DNA of 20,964 nucleotides. Origin: a virus. The DNA is taken from the IMG/VR virus record IMGVR_UViG_3300031823_000028, positions 1 through 20,964 of that record, one strand, 5' to 3'. Shown one piece after another: positions 7,121-20,964 of this stretch (the stretch's first letter is position 1; every line of letters starts with the position of its first letter). The notes under the pieces are model-generated. The model was not told the origin of the DNA, did not search any database, and was given only the letters and a program-made list of their open reading frames with translations. The position numbers and the translations under genes were made by a program.

Positions 7121-8431
7121 TCAGTACCGGACCGAGATCATCTCGTCCATCGGCGGGTCCTGGTAACCGACCTCGATCGCATTCGAAATCCGGGCCTCGC
7201 CCATGAACTGCTTGTAGGCCGCCGCGATGGTCTGTTGCTTCGCCGTGGATTGCGTCACGCTGGGGCAGATCTCGAAGGCGATGCGGGCGCCGAGCCCTTC
7301 GCAGAACATTGCGTCCATCAGGGAAACATCGACCACATCGGCGCCGAACCGGAACCGGATCGGGCCGGAATCGGTCGAGATCAGGTAGCCGCTCTCGAAA
7401 TCCCAATCGCGGAAGGTGTTGCCGCTGGGGCCGCCTAGCCATGTCGTTGTGCCCTTGGCATCCTGATAGCCGGCACGGAGGAACCCGGCCGGGAGCTTGA
7501 AGATGTTGCGGCTCGTCAAATCCGTGGATGGGCCGGTGCCGATCGGATACTGGATGTTGAGCGTGGTCAGCGCGACGCCCGAGGGCGAGCCGGTGCCGCC
7601 GATCAGGAGCCAGTTCATCGAACCGGTGCCGCCGGTGAATACCGAGGTCCATGGGTTGAGCACGCCGGTATTGGTCCAGTGCACGCCGCCGTCCAGCGTC
7701 GGGTCATGCCCGATATTGCCGGAGCCAACCGATTGGTAAATGATGCCGTCGGACCCGCCGACCTTGTTCCCCGCAGCATAGGTGGTGGCGATATTGAACA
7801 GCGCCGGCGCCAGGTCGGGCTCGTTGTTCATGTTGAAGTCGATCAGGCTGAGATACGCGACGCTCGCGAACGTCACCACCTGATCCTTGTAATAGGTGGT
7901 GGTCGCGCTGTACGGCGTCGCCGTTCCTGGCACGTCGGCATTGCCCGAGATCAGGCTGAGATAGACCAGTGCGGTCCCGGTGCCCGCCGTGGTGTAGACC
8001 ACCTCGCCCGCGCCATAGGCCGTGGTGCCTGACGCATCGTAAAGCGCGGCGGTCAGCGTCCCGAAATACGGCTCCCATAATGTGGTCAGCAGGGGATCGT
8101 TGCCGAGGTTGTCGGGGATGGTCGAGCGCCAGTAATTATTGCTCTGGTCGGCGACGATCGAGCCACGGAAATACGTGGTCAGCGGCGACCACAGCGACGG
8201 CACGATCAGCATGGTATTGCCGTCGATCGCGCGCAGCATGGCTTCCTTGATCGAGAACACCCATGAATTGCGCTTGAGTTCGGACTGTCGCAGCTTGTCG
8301 TAGCAGAAACTGATCTGGGCGGCTGCCGTGACCGAGGTATCGCCGAAACCCAACGCCGGATTCATCAGCGGCGAGCCGGTGTGCTGGCAGGCGCGTTGGC
8401 CGACATCAACCGGCGTGCGGAATGGGATCAT
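7121..8431 (-). CDS. Tail tubular protein A (gp11-like) with four tandem glycan-binding-like repeats
   Basis: The N-terminus (about 25-70, ALGFGDTSV...CYDKLRQSELKRNSWVFS) and the C-terminus (310-436) match tail tubular protein A of T7-like podoviruses. The C-terminal part contains FKLPAGFLRA, then DAMFCEGLGARIAFEI. The family forms the adaptor ring between portal and nozzle. T7 gp11 is 196 aa; this one is 436. The extra central region (about 81-252) consists of four imperfect modules of 35-45 residues: 81-121, 131-168, 173-209 and 211-252. Each carries TTY or TAY, a Gly/Val strand, a Tyr with Ser or Leu, an Asn-Pro loop and sometimes a closing Trp. They resemble CBM5/12 modules. No strong ribosome binding site is seen before the ATG, and the gene follows one copy of the repeated intergenic motif. 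Confidence 0.88.
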   Translation of the reverse strand: MIPFRTPVDVGQRACQHTGSPLMNPALGFGDTSVTAAAQISFCYDKLRQSELKRNSWVFSIKEAMLRAIDGNTMLIVPSLWSPLTTYFRGSIVADQSNNYWRSTIPDNLGNDPLLTTLWEPYFGTLTAALYDASGTTAYGAGEVVYTTAGTGTALVYLSLISGNADVPGTATPYSATTTYYKDQVVTFASVAYLSLIDFNMNNEPDLAPALFNIATTYAAGNKVGGSDGIIYQSVGSGNIGHDPTLDGGVHWTNTGVLNPWTSVFTGGTGSMNWLLIGGTGSPSGVALTTLNIQYPIGTGPSTDLTSRNIFKLPAGFLRAGYQDAKGTTTWLGGPSGNTFRDWDFESGYLISTDSGPIRFRFGADVVDVSLMDAMFCEGLGARIAFEICPSVTQSTAKQQTIAAAYKQFMGEARISNAIEVGYQDPPMDEMISVRY

Positions 8432-8458: not shown

Positions 8459-8471
8459 TGAGCAACGCACG
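8459..8471 (-). promoter_or_regulatory. Repeated intergenic motif, copy A
   Basis: The coding strand reads CGTGCGTTGCTCA, starting one base after the stop of the signal-peptide gene and ending 27 bases before the ATG of tail tubular protein A. It shares 15 bases with copy C (plus strand TTTGAGCAACGCACG) and 14 with copy D (plus strand GCAACGCACGATCA). No good sigma70 -35/-10 pair surrounds it. It may be a phage-specific promoter element or an RNA processing site; function is inferred. Confidence 0.5.
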
Positions 8472-10904: not shown

Positions 10905-12299
10905 CTATTCGGCGGCCTGCGCAGTTCCCGTCGACAAAACACGATTGCCAAAATCAGCCAGCAGCCGCTTCAGCGGGTCAGACCAATCGAGCGGTTTGCT
11001 CTGCCGATAGATTACCATCGAATCGTACCAGCAGGTTTCGCTGGTCTGCTGCATCCATGGCCACAGCGCGTCGAACCGCACCAGGTTCCAGACCGGCTTG
11101 CCCATGGCGCCGGCGAGGTGGGCCACCGAGGTATCGACCGTGATGACCAGATCGAGGTGGTCGATGATGAAGGCGGTATCGGCGAAATCGGTCACGCCGG
11201 CCATCGGATCGGTCACGCCGAGATCGCGCATCGCGGCGTCGTCGTTGTGGCTCTGCTGCAGCGAATAGAGATTGACGCCGGGCCGGGCCAGCGGGCGCAC
11301 CAGCTGATCGAACGACAGGCTTTTCTGCCGAGCCGTATCGGCGACGTGGGGCTGCAGATCGCGCTTGCCCGAGGACCAGCAGACGCCGACGTTGAGGCCG
11401 AGCGGGAATTGGAGACGGAAGCCGCGGTCGGGGGGGCTGAGATAGCCGCCTTTGAGCGGGACGGTTTCCGGCGTCATGTCGACGAAGCCGGGGACGTCGA
11501 GCAGGGCGCATTGATAGTCTGGCCGGACCGGCGGTTCGTCGTACATCAGGATAACCTCAACGGGATGGCCGTAATACGGGTTGATGTAAAATGAGTCGCG
11601 CACCATCCGGAACATCGGTGGCCGTACCGCCAATATAATACGCGCTCCCATCCTCTTGATCGGTTCGGCAAACCTCAAACTCTGGATTTCATCGCCGAAC
11701 CCCTGTTCCGAGAACAGCAGAATGGTCTTGCCGCCCAATGGTTCACCGTTCCAGACCGGATAGTTCAGGCGCGGCGCGGGAGGGAAGCCGGGCGCGTTGA
11801 AGCGGTGGCGATAGTTCTTGAAGCCGGCCTTCCAATCACCGGTGGCCATCAGGGCCTGCCCGTAATTGACGCGGAGCTGGGCATTCTCGTGCTTGTCGAA
11901 TGGGAAGGCCCAGCGGTATTGCTCGACTGCTTCCCCGACTCGCATCATAGTGCAGAGCAAATTGCCGTAGTTGAAATACCCCTCGAAACTCTGCCGCTCA
12001 TGAAGCGACCGCCTGAAGCTTTCCTCAGCCTCGACGAACATCCGCGCCGACATGGCATCGATGCCGCGGTTGCACCAGAGATCGTAACGGCCGGGATCGG
12101 CCTTCAATGCGATGCCGTGATACAGCATGGCGTTGCGGTAGCGGCCGGCGTCGGATTCGATCCGGGCCAGCATCGCCGGCGCATCGGCCACGGTCGCGTC
12201 CTGCCGCATGATTTCCCAGCAGAGCGCGGCGGCCTCCTCGCGGCGACCGGCCCGCATCATCATCACGGCGGCGTCGAAGGCTTGAGCGGCGGTGCTCAT
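10905..12299 (-). CDS. TPR-glycosyltransferase (GT9-like) encoded in the head cassette
   Basis: The 464-aa protein has helical TPR-like repeats over roughly residues 1-170 (for example AEESFRRSLHERQSFEGYFNYGN and VNYGQALMATGDWKAGF). A GT-B glycosyltransferase domain related to ADP-heptose:LPS heptosyltransferases (GT9-like) follows. Its family landmarks are intact: LLFSEQGFGDEIQ at about 194-206, VGVCWSSG near 304-311, LYSLQQ near 344-349 and ITVDTSVAHLAGAMGKPVW at about 386-404. There is no signal peptide, so it should act in the cytoplasm. Its ATG overlaps the scaffold stop (ATGA), tying it to the late structural unit. Parts of the middle look lower in GC. Possible roles are glycosylating a virion protein or altering host surface glycan; the acceptor and donor are unknown. 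Confidence 0.88.
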   Translation of the reverse strand: MSTAAQAFDAAVMMMRAGRREEAAALCWEIMRQDATVADAPAMLARIESDAGRYRNAMLYHGIALKADPGRYDLWCNRGIDAMSARMFVEAEESFRRSLHERQSFEGYFNYGNLLCTMMRVGEAVEQYRWAFPFDKHENAQLRVNYGQALMATGDWKAGFKNYRHRFNAPGFPPAPRLNYPVWNGEPLGGKTILLFSEQGFGDEIQSLRFAEPIKRMGARIILAVRPPMFRMVRDSFYINPYYGHPVEVILMYDEPPVRPDYQCALLDVPGFVDMTPETVPLKGGYLSPPDRGFRLQFPLGLNVGVCWSSGKRDLQPHVADTARQKSLSFDQLVRPLARPGVNLYSLQQSHNDDAAMRDLGVTDPMAGVTDFADTAFIIDHLDLVITVDTSVAHLAGAMGKPVWNLVRFDALWPWMQQTSETCWYDSMVIYRQSKPLDWSDPLKRLLADFGNRVLSTGTAQAAE

Positions 12300-13759: not shown

Positions 13760-14172
13760 GACGCCAGCTTCTCCGCCTTGCGCTTGTCGGAGGCGACCCA
13801 TTTCTGCAGCACCGCGAACATCTCCTCGCGGTCGCGGTCATCGAGCTTCAACTGATCGGCGAGCTTGCGCACCGCCATGATGAAGGATTGCTCGGTGCCG
13901 ATCTGGGCCACCACCTTCGAGCCGTCGCGCTCGATCATGTCGCAGACGATGTTGCCGCCCTCGTCGATATGGGCGTAGCTCGTAAAGAACGGCCGGTCGA
14001 AATCGACGAAGCCCGGGAACGTGACCTGCATCAGCGTCGTCAGTACGGCCGGATATTCCTTGGCGAGCGCGACGATCACGACCTTGCGCAGCTTGCCGGT
14101 AGAGTGGCGCAGCGCCTTGCTCTGCCACATCTCGCGGATTTCGTCGGCGTGCTTTTTGGCGGTCAGGCTCAC
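13756..14172 (-). CDS. Hypothetical phage protein between portal and scaffold (GTG start)
   Basis: I place the start at a GTG (14172) that overlaps the stop of the 53-aa gene as GTGA, with GGAGG eleven bases upstream, giving 138 aa. An ATG at 14229 in the same frame would add 19 residues that overlap the upstream gene, and it has no evident ribosome binding site. The product has basic N-terminal helices (LTAKKHADEIREMWQ), a mixed beta core (FPGFVDFDRPFFTSYAHIDEGGNIVCDMIE) and a helical C-terminus (DDRDREEMFAVLQKWVASDKRKAEKL). No family or catalytic motif is recognised. Its conserved position suggests a morphogenesis accessory role. Confidence 0.7.
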   Translation of the reverse strand: MSLTAKKHADEIREMWQSKALRHSTGKLRKVVIVALAKEYPAVLTTLMQVTFPGFVDFDRPFFTSYAHIDEGGNIVCDMIERDGSKVVAQIGTEQSFIMAVRKLADQLKLDDRDREEMFAVLQKWVASDKRKAEKLAS

Positions 14173-14330
14173 TTCGCGAACATCCTCCAGCTCTTGGTAG
14201 GATTGAAGCCGCGCAAGCGCCAGCCCCATTTCGTCAGGAATGCACGCATCTCGATATGCCGATACGCCGTGCCAGGCTTACCTTGTTCTGCCGATGGTTT
14301 GATGGTGCGGTTAAGGCGGCGAAGGGACAT
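14169..14330 (-). CDS. Small basic 53-aa protein, coupled between portal and next gene
   Basis: This short frame begins at an ATG with AAGGA six bases upstream, placed directly after the portal stop. It ends in a GTGA overlap with the following gene. The product is strongly basic and Trp-rich (MSLRRLNRTIKPS...YRHIEMRAFLTKWGW...NPTKSWRMFAK), suggesting nucleic acid binding or a small structural role. Precise spacing on both sides is the main evidence that it is translated. No family is recognised. Confidence 0.6.
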   Translation of the reverse strand: MSLRRLNRTIKPSAEQGKPGTAYRHIEMRAFLTKWGWRLRGFNPTKSWRMFAK

Positions 14331-14342
14331 ATTGTTTCCTTT

Positions 14343-16073
14343 TCACATCGGGCTCATCGGGGCTTGCGGCTGCGGGCCGGCGGTGGGCGGGGCTTTGCTG
14401 GCCGCTGCCTGGGCCTTAAGCATTGCGGCCTGCGCCGGCATAGCGTTGATCTGCTGCTGGCGCTCGGCCTGTCGCGCGCGGTTCTTCTGTTTCGCCGCGA
14501 TCTCCTGCGGGGTGGCGGAATGGCTGACCGGCATCTCGTTGATCTCGCCGGCATCGGGAATGATACGGTCGAATGCGAAGTAGTCGTAGACGCTGGAATC
14601 CTGCGAGTTGATCGCAACCTGATGGGCGATGTCAAGGGTGCGCAACGTGCCGGCGATCTGGCTCGACCTCGCCTGCAGCGCCAGCGGCGAGGTGTCGGTG
14701 ATCTCGGGGAACTGCCTTGCCTCGCGCAGCACCTGCGGCATCGCGGGCAGGATGGCACCGTTGCGGTTGCGCAACCGATCGAGCACGCTGAGTTCGCGCG
14801 GCACCAGCCCGCCGACATATTCGCTGTGCTGCCGGCCCAGCGTCGGCGCGACCAGCATGGCGCGCTCGTTGATCAGCTCGGTCACTTGCGTCGCCGTCAT
14901 ATTCGGGTTCTGCATCAAGGTCTTGAACAACGGGGTCAGGAAGATGTTCTCGACGATGCCGCGCTCCTCCTGCATCATTTCAAGCGTGATCTTGATGTCG
15001 CCGGTGGGCAGGACGTGCACCATCGGCTTGCCGTCCGGATTGACGCCGCCCGGATTCTTGGCGCCGGGCCGCATATCGAAATCCACCAGCCCGTCGTCCG
15101 GGGTGAGCAGCACGGGATCGCTGGCGCGGTGGCCGGTCTTGAGAAACACGCCCTTTTGCAGGTTGAGCGTTTTCGCGCTGGGCAGGCAGATCTGCAGCGG
15201 ACCGCGGCCGTACACCTCGCCCGGGGTCTGGTCGTATCTCGATACCGCATAGGGGAACGTGCGATAGCCGCTTTCCGGCGCGACGAAACACTGGCCCTCG
15301 ATCGAGACATACCAGGATACGAACGGCATCGATTTGTGGTCGATACGCTCAGGGTCGTAATCCTGCCCGCGCGGCATCACGCAATGCAGGAACTGGAACG
15401 GGGTTTGCAGGTTTTGCTCCAGCGCGGGCCGCAACATGGCGGGGAACCAGTCCTCGCCGAACTTCTCCATGGCCTGCGCCGCGGTCAGGCGGAACCACCT
15501 GACGATCGTGGTCACCACGCCCTGGTGGTTCTCGGCAAAGAAGCATTCGCCCAGCGGCACCGCCTTGTAGCGCAGGCCGCTTCCGGGATGCCAGCGCTGA
15601 TCCAGCGCGTCGACATACATGATCGAGTTGCCGAAGCCGGCAAGAGACTGCCAGTTGGAGAAGTTCTGGCCATGGAAATTGCCGCTGCTGCGATAGCGAT
15701 AATCGAACAGGGTCTTGCGCAGATCGTCGCAATACTGCCGCACTCCGCGCTGCTTCATCAGGTAGTCGTCAAACTCGACGCCCTGCCATAGCCGGTTTTT
15801 CGGAGTGATCAGCGAATCGGCAATCGCGCAGAACTGATGTATGGCCAGCGCCACGGTGGCGTCGACCTGCAGCTGGGTCTTTTTCATGCCCGGGAAATTA
15901 TAGCTGCCGTAGAAGAACGTGTTGCGGCTGGTCGGCAGCCCGATCGCGGCCGCCTCTTCCCATTGGCCCGCGAATATGTTGCGGTAGTTCTGCAGCTCGG
16001 AAAACAGTTTCAGCACGAGCCTGACGTCATCCTGCTCGTCCGGGTCGATCAGGCGCGGCGCGTAGAAGGCCAT
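14343..16073 (-). CDS. Portal / head-to-tail connector protein
   Basis: The 576-aa product matches the podovirus head-to-tail connecting family (Pfam PF12236 type). It opens with a helical segment (DVRLVLKLFSELQNYRNIFAGQWEEAA), followed by NTFFYGSYNFPGMKKTQLQVDATVALAIHQFCAIADSLITPKNRLW at about 51-96. Later come YGRGPLQICLPSAKTLN (about 289-305) and TATQVTELINERAMLVAPTLGRQ near 400-422. About twelve copies form the ring at the capsid vertex through which DNA is packaged and ejected. The C-terminal 70 residues are Gln/Ala/Pro-rich, as in T7-type portals. The gene starts 6 nt after a small upstream gene. The call is firm. Confidence 0.92.
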   Translation of the reverse strand: MAFYAPRLIDPDEQDDVRLVLKLFSELQNYRNIFAGQWEEAAAIGLPTSRNTFFYGSYNFPGMKKTQLQVDATVALAIHQFCAIADSLITPKNRLWQGVEFDDYLMKQRGVRQYCDDLRKTLFDYRYRSSGNFHGQNFSNWQSLAGFGNSIMYVDALDQRWHPGSGLRYKAVPLGECFFAENHQGVVTTIVRWFRLTAAQAMEKFGEDWFPAMLRPALEQNLQTPFQFLHCVMPRGQDYDPERIDHKSMPFVSWYVSIEGQCFVAPESGYRTFPYAVSRYDQTPGEVYGRGPLQICLPSAKTLNLQKGVFLKTGHRASDPVLLTPDDGLVDFDMRPGAKNPGGVNPDGKPMVHVLPTGDIKITLEMMQEERGIVENIFLTPLFKTLMQNPNMTATQVTELINERAMLVAPTLGRQHSEYVGGLVPRELSVLDRLRNRNGAILPAMPQVLREARQFPEITDTSPLALQARSSQIAGTLRTLDIAHQVAINSQDSSVYDYFAFDRIIPDAGEINEMPVSHSATPQEIAAKQKNRARQAERQQQINAMPAQAAMLKAQAAASKAPPTAGPQPQAPMSPM

Positions 16074-16079
16074 TTCAGC

Positions 16080-16274
16080 TCAACTCGTGGAAAGAGCTGC
16101 TCCATAGTCCGGAGCGAGGGACGACATGCCGATCGGAAGCTGCTTCGAGGCAGCCATGGCGGCGAGCCGCTTTTTGCGCGCCTCCTCGGTTTCGCCACTG
16201 ACCTGATCGCCTATCGACATCGTACCCATCAGGGCAGACGCGCCGGGAACCGGCATTGTCATCTGGCCCGCCAT
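16080..16274 (-). CDS. Small 64-aa phage protein upstream of portal
   Basis: The start is decided by a TGATG overlap: the ATG at 16274 shares one base with the stop of the preceding gene. The product opens with a Met/Pro/Gly-rich stretch (MAGQMTMPVPGASALMGTM). A charged helix (ETEEARKKRLAAMAASKQL) and a Ser/Ala-rich tail follow. Such tiny Met-rich proteins are often found directly before phage portal genes, with unknown function. Translation is probably coupled to the upstream gene because no strong ribosome binding site is present. Confidence 0.6.
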   Translation of the reverse strand: MAGQMTMPVPGASALMGTMSIGDQVSGETEEARKKRLAAMAASKQLPIGMSSLAPDYGAALSTS

Positions 16275-16684
16275 CAGCGCGCGACCTTGGCGGCCCTGCC
16301 GCGTCGGCGCCGCCATTGCTCGCGCATGTCGGTCGGGTTCTTGTCCTGGTTGACCTTGAGCTGGGCCTGCATCCGCTTCAGGTCCTCGGCGTAGTTCTCG
16401 TCGCCGCTGGGATGGCCGTCGCGCGGGCCATGCCAGCGGATGAAGGCGTCGACCGACTGCTGGGTCATATTGCCCGGCGAACCGCGGCCCTGCTCGATCC
16501 GGTAGCCCCGCTTGTCCTTGGGCGCGTCGACCCCGAACACGTTGGCGTCGACCGCATCGAAATGCCTCTCGATGAAATCGGGCGGCAACTGCCCGGCGTC
16601 GATCTGGGCCTGCATCAGCTCCAGCTCTTCCATGCTCTGGTTGATAGATGGCGGTCGCAGCGGGTCCATGCGGGTCTCGACCAT
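16274..16684 (-). CDS. Hypothetical 136-aa phage protein
   Basis: The product has an acidic helical N-terminus (SMEELELMQAQIDAGQLPPDFIERHFDAVDANVFG). A middle segment, KRGYRIEQGRGSPGNMTQQSVDAFIRWHG, follows, and the tail is very basic (REQWRRRRGRAAKVAR). The tail could bind nucleic acid. The gene begins 2 nt after the 126-aa gene and overlaps the next by one base, so the three small genes and the portal form one unit. I recognise no family. It may be an assembly or packaging accessory protein, which is inference from position. Confidence 0.68.
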   Translation of the reverse strand: MVETRMDPLRPPSINQSMEELELMQAQIDAGQLPPDFIERHFDAVDANVFGVDAPKDKRGYRIEQGRGSPGNMTQQSVDAFIRWHGPRDGHPSGDENYAEDLKRMQAQLKVNQDKNPTDMREQWRRRRGRAAKVAR

Positions 16685-16686
16685 GG

Positions 16687-17067
16687 TCAGGCATCCTGCC
16701 TTTGAGATTCGGCGCCAGGGTGGTCGACCAGTTTGTGCTGCTCGATTTCCTTGTGCGCGTTTTCCAGCGCCGTCACGGCGCCCCGGTGCGCGGCATCGGC
16801 CGCGGCGAGCAGACCTGCCTTGTGCGACACATCATTTTCCAGCACGACCAGCCGTTCCAGCTTGGCGTGCAACGCCTTGACGTCATCGGGCAGATGATGG
16901 CGCGGCGCACCGCTGCCGTCCTCGAGTTTGCCGGCGATGCGCGGCGTGCCCTCGCCCATGTGCCTGTCCTCGAATTCGCGGAGCTGAACAGCCGCAGTGG
17001 GCCTCGCTGGCTGATCGTCCATGCGATTGACCGCGCCGGGCTCCATTTTGAATTCCTGTTCGGCCAT
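16687..17067 (-). CDS. Hypothetical coiled-coil protein, first gene of the portal unit
   Basis: The ATG at 17067 (MAEQEFKMEPG) has GGAG eight bases upstream; the same frame extends further 5' but that part overlaps a terminator and the end of the terminase gene. The 126-aa product has a disordered N-terminal half rich in Pro and charged residues. A coiled-coil-like C-terminal half follows (VKALHAKLERLVVLENDVSHKAGLL...AVTALENAHKEIEQHKL). Its ribosome binding site directly follows the U-run of an intrinsic terminator, so readthrough may control it. The function is unknown. Confidence 0.68.
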   Translation of the reverse strand: MAEQEFKMEPGAVNRMDDQPARPTAAVQLREFEDRHMGEGTPRIAGKLEDGSGAPRHHLPDDVKALHAKLERLVVLENDVSHKAGLLAAADAAHRGAVTALENAHKEIEQHKLVDHPGAESQRQDA

Positions 17068-17078
17068 CTGAATTCTCC

Positions 17079-17119
17079 AAAAAGGCGGCGGGATCAGGCT
17101 TGTCCGGTCGATCCCGCCG
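17079..17119 (-). terminator. Intrinsic terminator between terminase and portal units
   Basis: On the coding strand a perfect 10-bp stem, CGGCGGGATC/GATCCCGCCG, closes a 14-nt loop and is followed by CC and five T residues. The run of T lies immediately before the GGAG ribosome binding site of the 126-aa gene. On the other strand no T-run follows, so it acts leftward. It should stop transcripts coming from the terminase genes, and also any starting at motif copy C, unless antitermination occurs. Confidence 0.8.
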
Positions 17120-17190
17120 TGAGGTGGTAAGCCCAAGGGGATAATCCGGCTCGGAGACCGGCGCGCGGAAACTGTGCTTGACGTGGCATT

Positions 17191-17203
17191 TGAGCAACGC
17201 ACG
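17191..17203 (-). promoter_or_regulatory. Repeated intergenic motif, copy C
   Basis: CGTGCGTTGCTCA on the coding strand starts at the base right after the large terminase stop codon. With copy A it shares 15 contiguous bases, and further matches follow (AAA, then G and CAC). It is flanked by ACGTG/CACGT, so a weak hairpin is possible. It lies about 70 nt before the intrinsic terminator and 123 nt before the next start codon. Confidence 0.5.
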
Positions 17204-18751
17204 TTAGAACAGCTGATATTCCCCGCCGGGATGGTTCGAAGTTCCGATCGCAAAATTCGACATACCGGGCACCGCGGTGCGGCGGAACGACACGCCGGCC
17301 AGCGGCGCTTTGGCAAACCGGATGTCCATCACGAGCTGGCGGGTTGCGGAAAGAATATCGTCGTCGACCTTGACCACGAGGCCCTTTTCGCGGTGATAGC
17401 CCTGGTATTCGTCGAACCATTCGAACAGGTGCTCGGCCACCTTGAGCCGGCCGGTGGCGAGCCGCGACTGCATCTCGTCGATCCCGTTCTCGAAGGTGAA
17501 GCCGCCGCCGGCGAAGGTGGCGTGGCTGGGCCGCATGTTGAGCCCGAGCTTCTTGTAGACCTGAGCGACCGTGGCGCCGTCGATGATCGAGCCGCCGCGG
17601 CCGCCGTCGTGGGGCCAGGCGCACAGCGCCTCCCACATCGGATGTTTCTTCATCGCCGCGACATGGGTCGAGGCCAGCCCCAGCATGCGCTCGGTGTGCA
17701 CGACGTGGATCACGTCGGCGTCGCGGTCCCAGCAGCCCAGCACGGCAGCGAACGGATGGCCGGAGGTCAGCGATCCCGAGTGCCGGAAGTCGAGCCCCCA
17801 CATCCATGGCCAGTAGGGCGGCACCGTGGCCGGGTCCATCCGCTCGGAGATCTGCAGCTTCGGCGTATCGAACACGGCGCCCTCGCCCTGCAGGTCGGCG
17901 CCGAACGCCCGGGTCTCACGCTCGTTGGCCGGGAAGCTGGCGATGATGCCGGGGATTTCCTCGTCAGGGATGTGGCCGCCCTTGCTGACCGCGGCGTCCC
18001 AGATCGTCATCAGGATTTCCCGCATCGAGGGCCCAAGCTTCTGCTTGAACCGCTTGCGTAGCGGCGAGAGCCCGAGCAGCGGGGTCAGCGACGAGATGAT
18101 CTTGCCCTGCGTGGTGACCATGCGCGCCAGCACCTCGCCGTAGATCGAGGCGTCGGTGCGGCTGATATCCTCGTCGAGCAGCACCTCGTCGGTCGGTTCG
18201 CCCTGGAACGCGGTGCGGCCCTGCTCATAGGTCTTGAACCGCAGCACCGCCTTGCCGCCGGTCTCGCGGCGCAGGTTGGCCGTGTCGACCAGACCTGAGA
18301 CGTTGCGCGACATCAGGGGCTTGCCGACGATGGAGTCCAGCGGCAGCAGCCCGGTTCCCATGTCGCCGTCGGCCACGGAACCCATCAGTTTCAACTGGAT
18401 GTTGTCGCGCACCTTGACCGCTTCCGTCGAGGCGCACCAGCCCAGCCATTCCATCGGCCGTTCGATCGCGGCAGGCGGTTTCAGGAACTGCCGCCCGTGA
18501 TACCAGGTGGGATACATGGCCAGCGCGTCCATCGCGATCTGAGCGCCGCCGGCATGCGTTTTTCCATTTTGATTCCCTGCGCGCAGCATGATCTCGCGCT
18601 CGAGCGCATTGTGGAACTCGCGCTGCTTGTCGTTCGGCCGATAGAAATCCAGCCGGCAGTATTTCTTGCGGTACTGCTCGTTGGTCAGCATCCGCTGCTG
18701 GTGCCGGCGGATTTCGTTGGGGTCGGGGCCTTCTTCAAGATCGTCGGTCAT
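17204..18751 (-). CDS. terL: Terminase large subunit
   Basis: The 515-aa product is the ATPase-nuclease motor that packages DNA through the portal. A Walker A-type loop, GNQNGKT, is at 59-65 and a Walker B VLLDED at 190-195. A coupling-type SSLTPLLG is at 220-227. The nuclease part has WGLDF at 318-322, WPHDGG near 379-384 and DDDIL at 463-467, giving the acidic residues expected of an RNase H-like domain. The start at 18751 is chosen because its ATG overlaps the preceding stop (ATGA); a frame start at 18787 would overlap 40 bases. The Walker A loop, with Asn-Gln-Asn before GKT, deviates from the classic P-loop, a known feature of some terminases. Confidence 0.93.
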   Translation of the reverse strand: MTDDLEEGPDPNEIRRHQQRMLTNEQYRKKYCRLDFYRPNDKQREFHNALEREIMLRAGNQNGKTHAGGAQIAMDALAMYPTWYHGRQFLKPPAAIERPMEWLGWCASTEAVKVRDNIQLKLMGSVADGDMGTGLLPLDSIVGKPLMSRNVSGLVDTANLRRETGGKAVLRFKTYEQGRTAFQGEPTDEVLLDEDISRTDASIYGEVLARMVTTQGKIISSLTPLLGLSPLRKRFKQKLGPSMREILMTIWDAAVSKGGHIPDEEIPGIIASFPANERETRAFGADLQGEGAVFDTPKLQISERMDPATVPPYWPWMWGLDFRHSGSLTSGHPFAAVLGCWDRDADVIHVVHTERMLGLASTHVAAMKKHPMWEALCAWPHDGGRGGSIIDGATVAQVYKKLGLNMRPSHATFAGGGFTFENGIDEMQSRLATGRLKVAEHLFEWFDEYQGYHREKGLVVKVDDDILSATRQLVMDIRFAKAPLAGVSFRRTAVPGMSNFAIGTSNHPGGEYQLF

Positions 18752-19047
18752 GCACGGACTTTTGAGCGCAGCCGGTAGCGCGCGCATATCGCCTTGCCGT
18801 TATCCGTCCAACTATCGGCCTGCGCTTGCGTGCACTCCGCGCAATATCGATATGTCATCATGCCGTCCGTTTGCCAGAGCATCGCAAGGCTTCTGCCCGT
18901 TGTGCCGGGCTCGACGTTGCCGCCGCAGACGTGACACTGATTGACCTTGCGAAATTTGACGAGCTTATCGCTCATCTCGCGGTCGCCTTGATCTCCGAAG
19001 TCCCCTTCGAACGGATTGTATTTCAGCGCCTCCGAAAGGCTGGTCAT
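18748..19047 (-). CDS. Small zinc-ribbon-like protein between terS and terL
   Basis: The 99-aa protein has two Cys pairs, CHVC at 38-41 and CAEC at 69-72, separated by 27 residues, which should bind one zinc ion. A basic segment precedes the first pair (KLVKFRKVNQ) and another ends the protein (CARYRLRSKVRA), suggesting nucleic acid contact. It overlaps terS and terL at both ends by ATGA junctions, so it is co-translated with the packaging motor. It could be a packaging accessory or a small regulator. It lacks the conserved His/Asn set of an HNH nuclease, so I do not call it one. Confidence 0.72.
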   Translation of the reverse strand: MTSLSEALKYNPFEGDFGDQGDREMSDKLVKFRKVNQCHVCGGNVEPGTTGRSLAMLWQTDGMMTYRYCAECTQAQADSWTDNGKAICARYRLRSKVRA

Positions 19048-19598
19048 CGGTTCACTGTCCCCTCAATCACCTTCTGCTCCCGCCGCCCATCCCGCTCCGC
19101 CAGCATCTTCTCGTACCGCTCCAACCCGGAATAGCCGAATATCTGCTCCAGCTTGGCCCTCGGCACCTCCAGCGCGAGATACCGCGCCAGATCATCCACC
19201 GCCGCGTCGGTGTGGTTCACCGTGACCTCGCCGCTGTGGTTGACGTCGATCGTGCTGCGCTCGCCCAGCCCGCCCTGCGACAGCACCGCCTTGACCATCG
19301 TGGCATGATCCCGGTGCTTTGGGTTCGAAATCATGTCCTCCGCGGCCAGCACCGCCGGCATCAGCAGCCCCCCGAAATACGTGGTCGCCACCTCCCGCAT
19401 CGCCTCGATCACCCGCTTGCGATGCCGCAGCGCATGCCCGCGCACCCGGATCGCCCCGGTCCCGGTATCCTCAAACCCGGCCCGCCGCGCCGCCTCCGTG
19501 GCGTCCTTGCCGCCCTGTTCCAGAAACGCCAGCACCCACACCCGCTCCTGCGGCGTGCAAGCCAGCATCTTCGGCCCAAGCTCCTTCAAAAGCTCCAT
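19044..19598 (-). CDS. terS: Terminase small subunit
   Basis: The 184-aa product has the family's N-terminal DNA-binding region: TPQERVWVLAFLEQGGKDATEAARRAGF at about 15-42, with a helix-turn-helix in the DATEAARRAGF part and a basic helix RVRGHALRHRKRVIEAM after it. A central oligomerisation-type helix and a charged C-terminus (AEIRDGRREQ-like, ending EGTVNR) follow. It recognises viral DNA and recruits the large subunit. I use the ATG at 19598; a TTG at 19616 in the same frame would add six residues, and neither has a strong ribosome binding site. It starts a three-gene overlapping packaging cassette downstream of a regulatory gap. Confidence 0.85.
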   Translation of the reverse strand: MELLKELGPKMLACTPQERVWVLAFLEQGGKDATEAARRAGFEDTGTGAIRVRGHALRHRKRVIEAMREVATTYFGGLLMPAVLAAEDMISNPKHRDHATMVKAVLSQGGLGERSTIDVNHSGEVTVNHTDAAVDDLARYLALEVPRAKLEQIFGYSGLERYEKMLAERDGRREQKVIEGTVNR

Positions 19599-19625
19599 AA
19601 ACCGACCATGCTTCAACTGTTATCG

Positions 19626-19638
19626 GCTGCAACGCACG
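19626..19638 (-). promoter_or_regulatory. Repeated intergenic motif, copy D (10-base core)
   Basis: The coding strand carries the core CGTGCGTTGC followed by AGC instead of TCA. It shares 14 contiguous bases with copy A (plus strand GCAACGCACGATCA). It lies 27 bases before the terS ATG, nearly the same spacing as copy A to its gene, and directly follows an inverted repeat. Confidence 0.42.
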
Positions 19639-19639
19639 A

Positions 19640-19666
19640 TCACGCCCGGATCAGAACTGGGCGTGA
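19640..19666. repeat. Perfect 8-bp inverted repeat upstream of terS
   Basis: TCACGCCC (19640-19647) and GGGCGTGA (19659-19666) form perfect 8-bp arms around an 11-nt loop. No T-run follows on either strand, so it is not a canonical terminator. It directly abuts motif copy D, so it may be part of the same control element or a binding site for a dimeric protein. Confidence 0.55.
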
Positions 19667-19742
19667 CTAATATGCAACAGTGTTTGGAGTGAAACCGCGA
19701 AAGATTGGGAAAACGTCGATGATCGCGAGGCCGCCAGGTTTT

Positions 19743-19764
19743 CCCCTACCCCACCACCCTCCCC
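19743..19764 (-). other. G-quadruplex motif upstream of terS
   Basis: The minus (coding) strand has four G-runs of 4, 3, 4 and 4, separated by loops of 1 (A), 4 (TGGT) and 2 (TA) bases, which meets the usual quadruplex rule. It would form in the non-template strand or in the RNA leader of the packaging genes. Formation is predicted from sequence only. Confidence 0.55.
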
Positions 19765-19903
19765 GGTCTTTTGCCTGGTCGAGCACTACATTTCGCCGGC
19801 AATCCACGTTTCGCCAGCTCAGTCATCGCGCAATCCATAACAATATCAATAGGTTGGTTTGATTACCACGGTGATGGCCTCAGACTGAACAAATATGACC
19901 GAT

Positions 19904-19917
19904 CTGATATGTATCAA
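19904..19917. promoter_or_regulatory. FNR/FixK-like dyad
   Basis: On the minus strand TTGATACATATCAG matches the FNR/FixK consensus TTGAT-N4-ATCAA at nine of ten positions, with TGATA/TATCA arms. It lies 11 bases after the stop of the 54-aa gene, and its TTGATA half could also serve as a -35 element, with a weak TATTTG 16 bases on. A single imperfect match may be chance. Confidence 0.25.
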
Positions 19918-19928
19918 AACGGACCTAG

Positions 19929-20093
19929 TTATCGGTGTTTAGGTAGTGATGAGCTCTTCCTCCGCATTTCCTCCATGGAAGCCGTGAGCCGTTCAATCTC
20001 GTCGGCAGCGGCCCGCATCAGCCTACATTCCTCAGACCCACCAGTACCAGCGTATTCGCGTAGTTGCTTCTCGATGTCCGACTCATCGCTCAT
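19929..20093 (-). CDS. Hypothetical 54-aa coiled-coil protein
   Basis: The ATG at 20093 has GAGGTG six bases upstream and begins MSDESDIEKQLREYAG. The same frame could start at 20258, but the extra 55 residues have an odd composition and a poor ribosome binding site, so I reject the longer form. The product is acidic at the start, then helical (LMRAAADEIERLTASMEEMRRK), the pattern of many small phage proteins with an AADEIERL heptad segment. The 173 nt between it and the upstream gene hold no other convincing feature. The function is unknown. Confidence 0.6.
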   Translation of the reverse strand: MSDESDIEKQLREYAGTGGSEECRLMRAAADEIERLTASMEEMRRKSSSLPKHR

Positions 20094-20266
20094 GCTGTCA
20101 CCTCGCCCTGTTTGCGTACTGTAAAGCGGCTGTCCGGTGTAGAGGTTGCCCTTGCAGCACGCCGTCTCGTTGGGACTGTGCTGGCTGCCTCGACTTGTGG
20201 CACCTCGGATGGCCTCTTCCTTCCCGGTGCTGCGTGGCACTGTTTCTGCACCATACATATTACGCT

Positions 20267-20875
20267 CTAAGGTATGTAGGGTGCGGGATTAGTGCCACCG
20301 GTTGATTTGCGCCTGCGGAACCAAGTTCGGCGGCTGATCCCAAGGACTTCCCATGGCTTGCCGGCTTTGGGCTTGCGGGGACGTCGGGCTGCATCTCTAG
20401 CGGCTCGTTTGGCTTTGGCGCGGATCAGGCGCTGCGCCTTGGCGCAGTCGATGGCGCCGATGGTCTTGATCTTGAGTTCGGAGCGCTTGGCGTCGGTCAG
20501 GCGGATTTTCCAGGCCAGTTTGTCGGCCCCCCATTTGATCGGGCATTCGACCACCTCGGATATCAGGCGCTCAAGATCGCGCGGGGTGACCCACGGGGCG
20601 TAGGCCGCACACCAGACCGTGACGCGTCGCGGGGTGTCCGGAAGGCCGCCCAGGTGGTGCGCGAATAGGCGGACAGTGGAATAGCCGGCATCGCTGGCCT
20701 CGAGTTCGGCGCCGGCGCCGTTCCAGTCGTGCAGCCATCGGGTGAGCTCGGAGAGGCGAATCGCAGCCATGGCGCGCGATCGGTTGCCGAGCTTCGCCAG
20801 CTTGCGGCGGTAGCGCTTGGCGATCTCATATTTGCGCGCCGCGACCTGCGCTGGCGTCGGCCTTCGATTTGGCAT
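20267..20875 (-). CDS. Uncharacterised rhizobial-type DNA-binding-like protein
   Basis: The 202-aa protein is very basic at its N-terminus (RRPTPAQVAARKYEIAKRYRRKLAK). It contains WKIRLTDAKRSELKIKTIGAIDC near 121-143, then a Lys/Arg-rich linker, and ends with GKPWEVLGISRRTWFRRRK, a homeodomain-like helix-turn-helix signature. This arrangement (IGAxD, basic linker, PWExxGISRRTWxRRR) is one I associate with uncharacterised proteins on rhizobial plasmids, integrative elements and prophages, and it supports an alphaproteobacterial source. No clear ribosome binding site precedes the ATG. It may be a regulator or replication accessory; the role is unknown. Confidence 0.72.
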   Translation of the reverse strand: MPNRRPTPAQVAARKYEIAKRYRRKLAKLGNRSRAMAAIRLSELTRWLHDWNGAGAELEASDAGYSTVRLFAHHLGGLPDTPRRVTVWCAAYAPWVTPRDLERLISEVVECPIKWGADKLAWKIRLTDAKRSELKIKTIGAIDCAKAQRLIRAKAKRAARDAARRPRKPKAGKPWEVLGISRRTWFRRRKSTGGTNPAPYIP

Positions 20876-20964
20876 CGAAGCAGGCTATCAGGTTCGGTTT
20901 ATTTTGGAATGGCTATTTCATTGATCTGGGCTGGAGCATGTACCAGCGGTGCGCCCAGTCTTGC

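Follow-up and report, generated by a model that had tools for sequence, protein, structure and literature searches.

How do the structural genes of a phage come to be transcribed when a hairpin resembling a terminator abuts the ribosome binding site of the first of them? This question arises in a virus record of 20,964 bases, the whole of which we call the window (the same stretch is also numbered L001 in our set of loci). There the structural genes all lie on the minus strand, with the assignment of the small terminase being probable, and the 136 bases between the gene for the large terminase subunit and the gene for a 126-aa protein contain both a promoter-like motif, here called motif C, and the hairpin. 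Our analysis, made on sequence, inclines us to think that a leaky terminator yields a leader or small RNA at this place, that read-through yields the structural mRNA, and that the unit comes from, or imitates, a phage-borne alphaR8 gene. Positions 14000-20964 of the window gave no nucleotide similarity to named phages, and a nucleotide search of named phages with the leader returned only short, unconvincing matches. The features needed in what follows are these:

17204 to 18787, minus strand: gene for the terminase large subunit (PF03237 and PF17289), adjoining the hairpin unit on its upstream side
17194 to 17202, minus strand: -35-like half of motif C, GTGCGTTGC, part of a motif whose two boxes keep a fixed distance in relatives
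17168 to 17174, minus strand: -10-like half of motif C, CAGTTTC, assigned by spacing (relatives' consensus CACSTTC, spacer 17)
17161 to 17164 (about 17162), minus strand: predicted transcription start of promoter C, placed by the leaderless-ATG offset
17146 to 17161, minus strand: CCGG-TCTCCGAG-CCGG, a possible weak hairpin located where alphaR8 has one
17120 to 17145, minus strand: C-rich linker ATTATCCCCTTGGGCTTACCACCTCA, at the place of the relatives' anti-Shine-Dalgarno (anti-SD) core, which is TTTCCTCCC and then GACT
17086 to 17119, minus strand: terminator stem-loop with GGACAAG in its loop (RNAfold and shuffle test)
17079 to 17083, minus strand: T5 tract, with CC between it and the stem
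17075 to 17078, minus strand: Shine-Dalgarno (SD) sequence GGAG of the 126-aa gene, beginning one base past the T5 tract
16687 to 17067, minus strand: the 126-aa gene (ATG at 17067), first gene 3' of the terminator
14343 to 16073, minus strand: portal (head-tail connector) gene (PF12236), downstream in the same direction
10692-9724, minus strand: major capsid protein gene

The sequence-only reading had described a perfect 10-bp stem with a T5 tract ending where GGAG starts, and the coordinates bear this out on the minus strand: the 5' arm CGGCGGGATC (17119-17110) and the 3' arm GATCCCGCCG (17095-17086) enclose a 14-nt loop (17109-17096), and RNAfold lengthens the perfect 10-bp stem to 11 pairs. 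Of 300 dinucleotide shuffles, 1 had a perfect 10-bp stem with T5 and 26 had an 8-bp stem with T4, and when both strands were scanned this was the sole perfect stem of at least 8 bp in the window with T4 or longer at most 3 nt away. A stock terminator scanner missed the hairpin because its loop limit is 8. The window has one other perfect hairpin of at least 10 bp, at position 18, with no T-run after it. An RNA running from the predicted start as far as the last T, 84 nt in all, is more stably folded than its shuffles (z -2.2), with the stem as the stable part. We conclude that the hairpin is most likely a Rho-independent terminator, at which a short RNA from a late phage promoter ahead of the portal and capsid genes comes to an end. 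That it is a strong one, as had been said, is doubtful, because CC parts the stem from the T-run and just five T's precede GG.

The same reading held that no space is left for a promoter 3' of the hairpin, and indeed neither the promoter motif nor a sigma-70-like site was found in the interval between the hairpin and the 126-aa gene. It also placed motif C upstream of the hairpin; this copy is real, and its strand has four copies in all of a bipartite promoter made of GTGCGTTGC, a 17-nt spacer and a CACSTTC-like box. The longer string CGTGCGTTGCTC occurs exactly three times in the window, on the minus strand only and outside genes, at 17203, 10897 and 8471; a fourth GTGCGTTGC begins at 19637 (minus), and the plus strand has no copy. 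Among 214 distinct GT[GA]CGTTG[CT] sites from 170 loci and the window, a second box stands at a fixed distance: CACSTTC has its spacer peak at 17 (42 sites), TTC falls at offset 32 in 63 sites, and ATG falls at offsets 40 and 41 in 31 sites each. Since part of the 170 loci were fetched by the two-box pattern itself, the 127 sites in loci fetched by terminase are the cleaner test; there 52 sites have an ATG at offset 38-43, while two control intervals of the same width yield 7 and 8. To judge from these spacings, the motif is a -35/-10-like promoter that often gives a leaderless mRNA.

Two further copies in the window, at 8470 (ATG 8431) and 19637 (ATG 19598), both show an offset of 39, and the small terminase gene starting at 19598 and a 436-aa tail gene starting at 8431 (both minus) probably have leaderless mRNAs. 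Copy C has no ATG at the corresponding offset, and its RNA would therefore carry a leader, with a predicted start near 17162, a stem from about +44 and the last T at about +84. The leader has no ATG 5' of the hairpin, such as attenuation by a leader peptide would call for. What polymerase would read this promoter? A T7-type system was rejected for the relatives searched: the single-subunit RNA polymerase domain PF00940 was found in 0 of 15 relatives, with the T7 control detected, and the host polymerase is therefore the likely one. The sigma-factor domain PF08281 gave weak matches below cut-off in 3 of 16 records.

If motif C is a promoter, transcription of the 126-aa gene must pass through the terminator, because no room for another promoter is left downstream. 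This much of the earlier proposal of obligatory read-through stands, while dedicated antitermination, its other half, has gained no evidence. Antitermination is possible, but a dedicated antiterminator is not needed, as a leaky terminator would suffice.

Searches with the terminase gave 35 viral loci and one contig from a metagenome-assembled genome (MAG), and a wider search added its best 80 loci, partly overlapping with these. In a set of 32 loci (31 from the first group plus the window, including the near-identical L012/L013, L023/L033 and L024/L025/L028) the motif lies near the terminase end in 27; the terminase strand carries 91 copies of it and the opposite strand 5. A terminator-like hairpin, at a fixed score, follows the motif in 12 of the 27 loci, compared with 37 of 1500 random pieces. 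The stem itself, whose conservation had been put forward as a check, differs among the window, L002, L021 and L022, which have a GGACAAG loop in common. All 30 units examined, which were picked by hand, lie between terminase and portal on the same strand as far as the contigs reach (those of L003, L028 and L074 stop before the portal), and by tblastn homologues of the 126-aa gene often come after the unit. L216, fetched through the core pattern alone, nonetheless shows promoter, terminase and portal at their usual places. In at least three relatives (L003, L043 and L067) a second promoter stands 3' of the terminator, which indicates that the unit can stand independently of the gene.

These layouts resemble a known family of bacterial small RNAs, a likeness that the sequence-only reading had not anticipated, any more than the second promoters. 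The alphaR8 family (MmgR, SisA-D; RF00519) shows the same combination of own promoter, weak hairpin, C-rich stretch and Rho-independent terminator, and its defining features, in a published account, are the terminator and a single-stranded UUUCCUCCCU 3' of the weak hairpin (PMC12559287). The account also has host copies mostly adjoining a gene for N-formyl glutamate amidohydrolase, and Caulobacter SisA, a member of the family, repressing many mRNAs, among them one for a TonB-dependent receptor (PMC12559287). Many phage units, among the matches listed, carry an anti-SD core of TTTCCTCCC followed by GACT. One relative, L043, matches the Rfam model RF00519 (suhB/MmgR, alphaR8) at 51.7 bits, above the threshold of 41; L068 (38.6), L078 (30.7), L216 (27.8), L152 (26.8) and L025 (26.7) score under it, and the unit-bearing L067, L022, L024, L166, L098, L053, L072, L034 and L006 gave no RF00519 match up to an E-value of 1. 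Moreover, copies like suhB/MmgR lie unannotated in Bradyrhizobium phages: that in ppBeUSDA76-1 (L295) passes the RF00519 threshold with 62.8 bits, and those in BDU-MI-1 (L294; 37.0 bits) and ppBeUSDA76-2 (L296; 34.8 bits) fall below it.

A second family appears in one relative only, where positions 3784-3924 of L003 match RF02356 (BjrC1505) at 47.4 bits, below the curated threshold of 50; the match lies at the same phage locus, from which it follows that various host-type sRNAs may have occupied this position, and the window has no such match. Beyond the units described here, alphaR8-like cores with a terminator lie upstream of the capsid gene in L191 (near 2344) and L201 (near 1111), whose capsid protein is 29% identical. 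Another 104 distinct alphaR8-like cores without this promoter occur in viral contigs (L171-L285), some of which are perhaps host flanks of proviruses or integration sites.

Does the window's own copy belong to the family? Like alphaR8 it has a terminator, with a stem of 10-11 bp and T5. At the place of the weak hairpin stands CCGG-N8-CCGG, a possible hairpin that has comparable ones in relatives (in L074 it reads CCGG-TCTCTTAG-CCGG) but is not part of the window's minimum-energy fold. In contrast to the relatives, with their core and one match above the Rfam threshold, the window leader lacks the defining 10-mer UUUCCUCCCU and reads UUAUCCCCUU and CCACCUCAC instead. The nearest relative by terminase, L006 (78%), has an intermediate form of the leader with CACTCCCGTGAACTTG. 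Rfam gave no match at gathering threshold over the whole window and, in 17030-17230, found no right-strand family with the E-value limit relaxed to 10, RF00519 with its 41-bit threshold included. A seed profile from 22 sequences, one of which (L296) was dropped by the core pattern, places its best spot in the window leader only within the top 0.4% of window positions.

We also compared the window with a covariance model, R2, built from 17 phage copies with the window left out and with its structure read from column pairing; an earlier model, R1, was dropped in its favour, as it had 3 pairs only and stems misaligned by MAFFT. R2 hits the window at this hairpin alone (17.0 bits, E 0.0028, or 0.086 over 57 sources), and the hit covers model positions 41-84, which are the terminator half. 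Because other GC-rich stems reach 14-20 bits on their reverse strands with the model, this match speaks for a terminator of like shape and is no proof of descent. In the R2 alignment 76.6% of cells are paired and 13 are doubly changed, values that no shuffle attained, and we take this covariation as moderate support only, because sliding the partners by +2 gives an equal score (0.202 against 0.201 unshifted). By sequence, then, the window's unit is alphaR8-like in layout and place, and not a demonstrated member of alphaR8. It differs from the known family, too, in lying inside a late phage operon with its terminator touching the next SD.

How would such a unit work? Promoter C would initiate RNA near 17162, just past the terminase gene, and the hairpin of 10-11 bp with its T5 tract would stop part of the transcripts once they are about 84 nt long, and these would be a short leader or small RNA. 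The remaining polymerases would read on into an mRNA that encodes the 126-aa protein and probably extends over the portal region; we expect such leakage because the U-tract is short, stands behind CC and runs straight into the SD. The unit would descend from, or imitate, the phage-borne alphaR8 (MmgR/SisA/suhB) sRNA gene of sister phages, in which the short RNA would act as an anti-SD sRNA, and the anti-SD seed would have drifted in the window's copy.

The loop of the hairpin adds a second element to this picture. Of GGA[CT]AAG the window has 7 copies on its minus strand and none on the plus strand. Of these, 2 are in genes; among the 5 outside listed genes, one belongs to the terminator loop, three precede the major capsid gene in its leader, and the last, at 232, is close to the end of the record, in a region without genes on the list used. 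GGACAAG is the loop in the window, L002, L021 and L022, and the related GACAAGC, among the matches listed, stands in the terminator region of these four and of L086 and L152. It stands in the terminator region of none of 105 alphaR8-like cores without the promoter, and because of this absence we regard the loop as a trait of this phage group. The capsid gene leader (window 10896-10693, minus) combines promoter copy B with three hairpin-like GGA[CT]AAG units; immediately 5' of it lies a glycosyltransferase-9/TPR-like gene (10905-12299, minus). Upstream of 43 distinct capsid genes the wider pattern GG[AG][CT]A[AC]G gives 97 units against 2 on the reverse complement, with at least 2 units in 32 of the 43 regions. 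Such capsid leaders in L021, L043, L067, L086 and L087 had no Rfam match at gathering threshold, and the units are possibly a new tandem-hairpin RNA element.

Since the loop is shared by both leaders, there is room for a common phage RNA-binding factor, and this would also suit a different account of the locus, in which promoter C and the early terminator form a regulated attenuator of the late operon, relieved by a phage antitermination factor, with the short RNA a by-product. In phage lambda the late promoter pR' gives a short leader (6S RNA) that ends at the early terminator tR', and Q antitermination carries transcription into the late genes. The window would follow the same plan of late promoter, short leader, early terminator and read-through into late genes: a late promoter stands closely 5' of a terminator and before late genes, as in a Q-type attenuator, with the predicted start about 44 nt 5' of the hairpin and read-through obligatory. 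In L014, L024 and L034, moreover, the core and the terminator's 5' arm could, as read by eye, form pairs, but a core rich in C and an arm rich in G would be expected to do so by default. Unlike lambda, the terminator here abuts the first SD, and L003, L043 and L067 can restart from their second promoter rather than read through. We consider this attenuator unlikely.

Another account makes the hairpin the 5' hairpin of the structural mRNA, protecting or processing its end or tuning access to the SD, with the U-run incidental. Among 21 short leaders of relatives, 6 have a stem of at least 6 ending at the SD, against 2.6% of shuffles, and several relatives without a terminator retain a hairpin overlapping the same SD (in L008 a stem without U-tract), for which reason control of SD access, which had also been suggested, stays a reading of the locus. 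A loop shared by the window, L002, L021 and L022 despite different stems fits as well. On the other hand, when window 17060-17162 is folded, a 2-bp pairing is all that holds the SD, and L003, L043 and L067 keep stem and T-run where, owing to the second promoter, a promoter and no SD comes next. This too strikes us as improbable. That the hairpin is a plain terminator of the terminase operon without regulatory role, the structural genes being fed by leak-through, agrees with its position immediately 3' of the terminase genes and is very improbable indeed, as a new promoter copy before the hairpin would be pointless for a mere insulator and as relatives have a conserved core and sRNA matches.

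We return to the leaky terminator with its short RNA. Phage-encoded sRNAs that act in the host sRNA network are known, and AsxR and AgvB are described as sponges in the same account (PMC12559287). Those two act on host sRNAs, whereas the relatives here match an alphaproteobacterial anti-SD sRNA and the unit doubles as an mRNA leader. Our literature search, thin in subscription journals, found no report of host-like alphaR8 sRNAs in phages. More generally, and with a good deal of doubt, we put forward the idea that a clade of podovirus-like soil phages may carry a host-type anti-SD sRNA gene in the leader of its portal and capsid genes, that one leaky terminator may decide between sRNA and mRNA, and that a factor recognizing GGAYAAG may link the capsid hairpins to it. 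The named Bradyrhizobium phages with unannotated copies make the idea of a phage alphaR8 testable in culture. If it is true, a phage could act on the host's anti-SD regulon late in infection, and this action would be coupled to the expression of its own structural genes.
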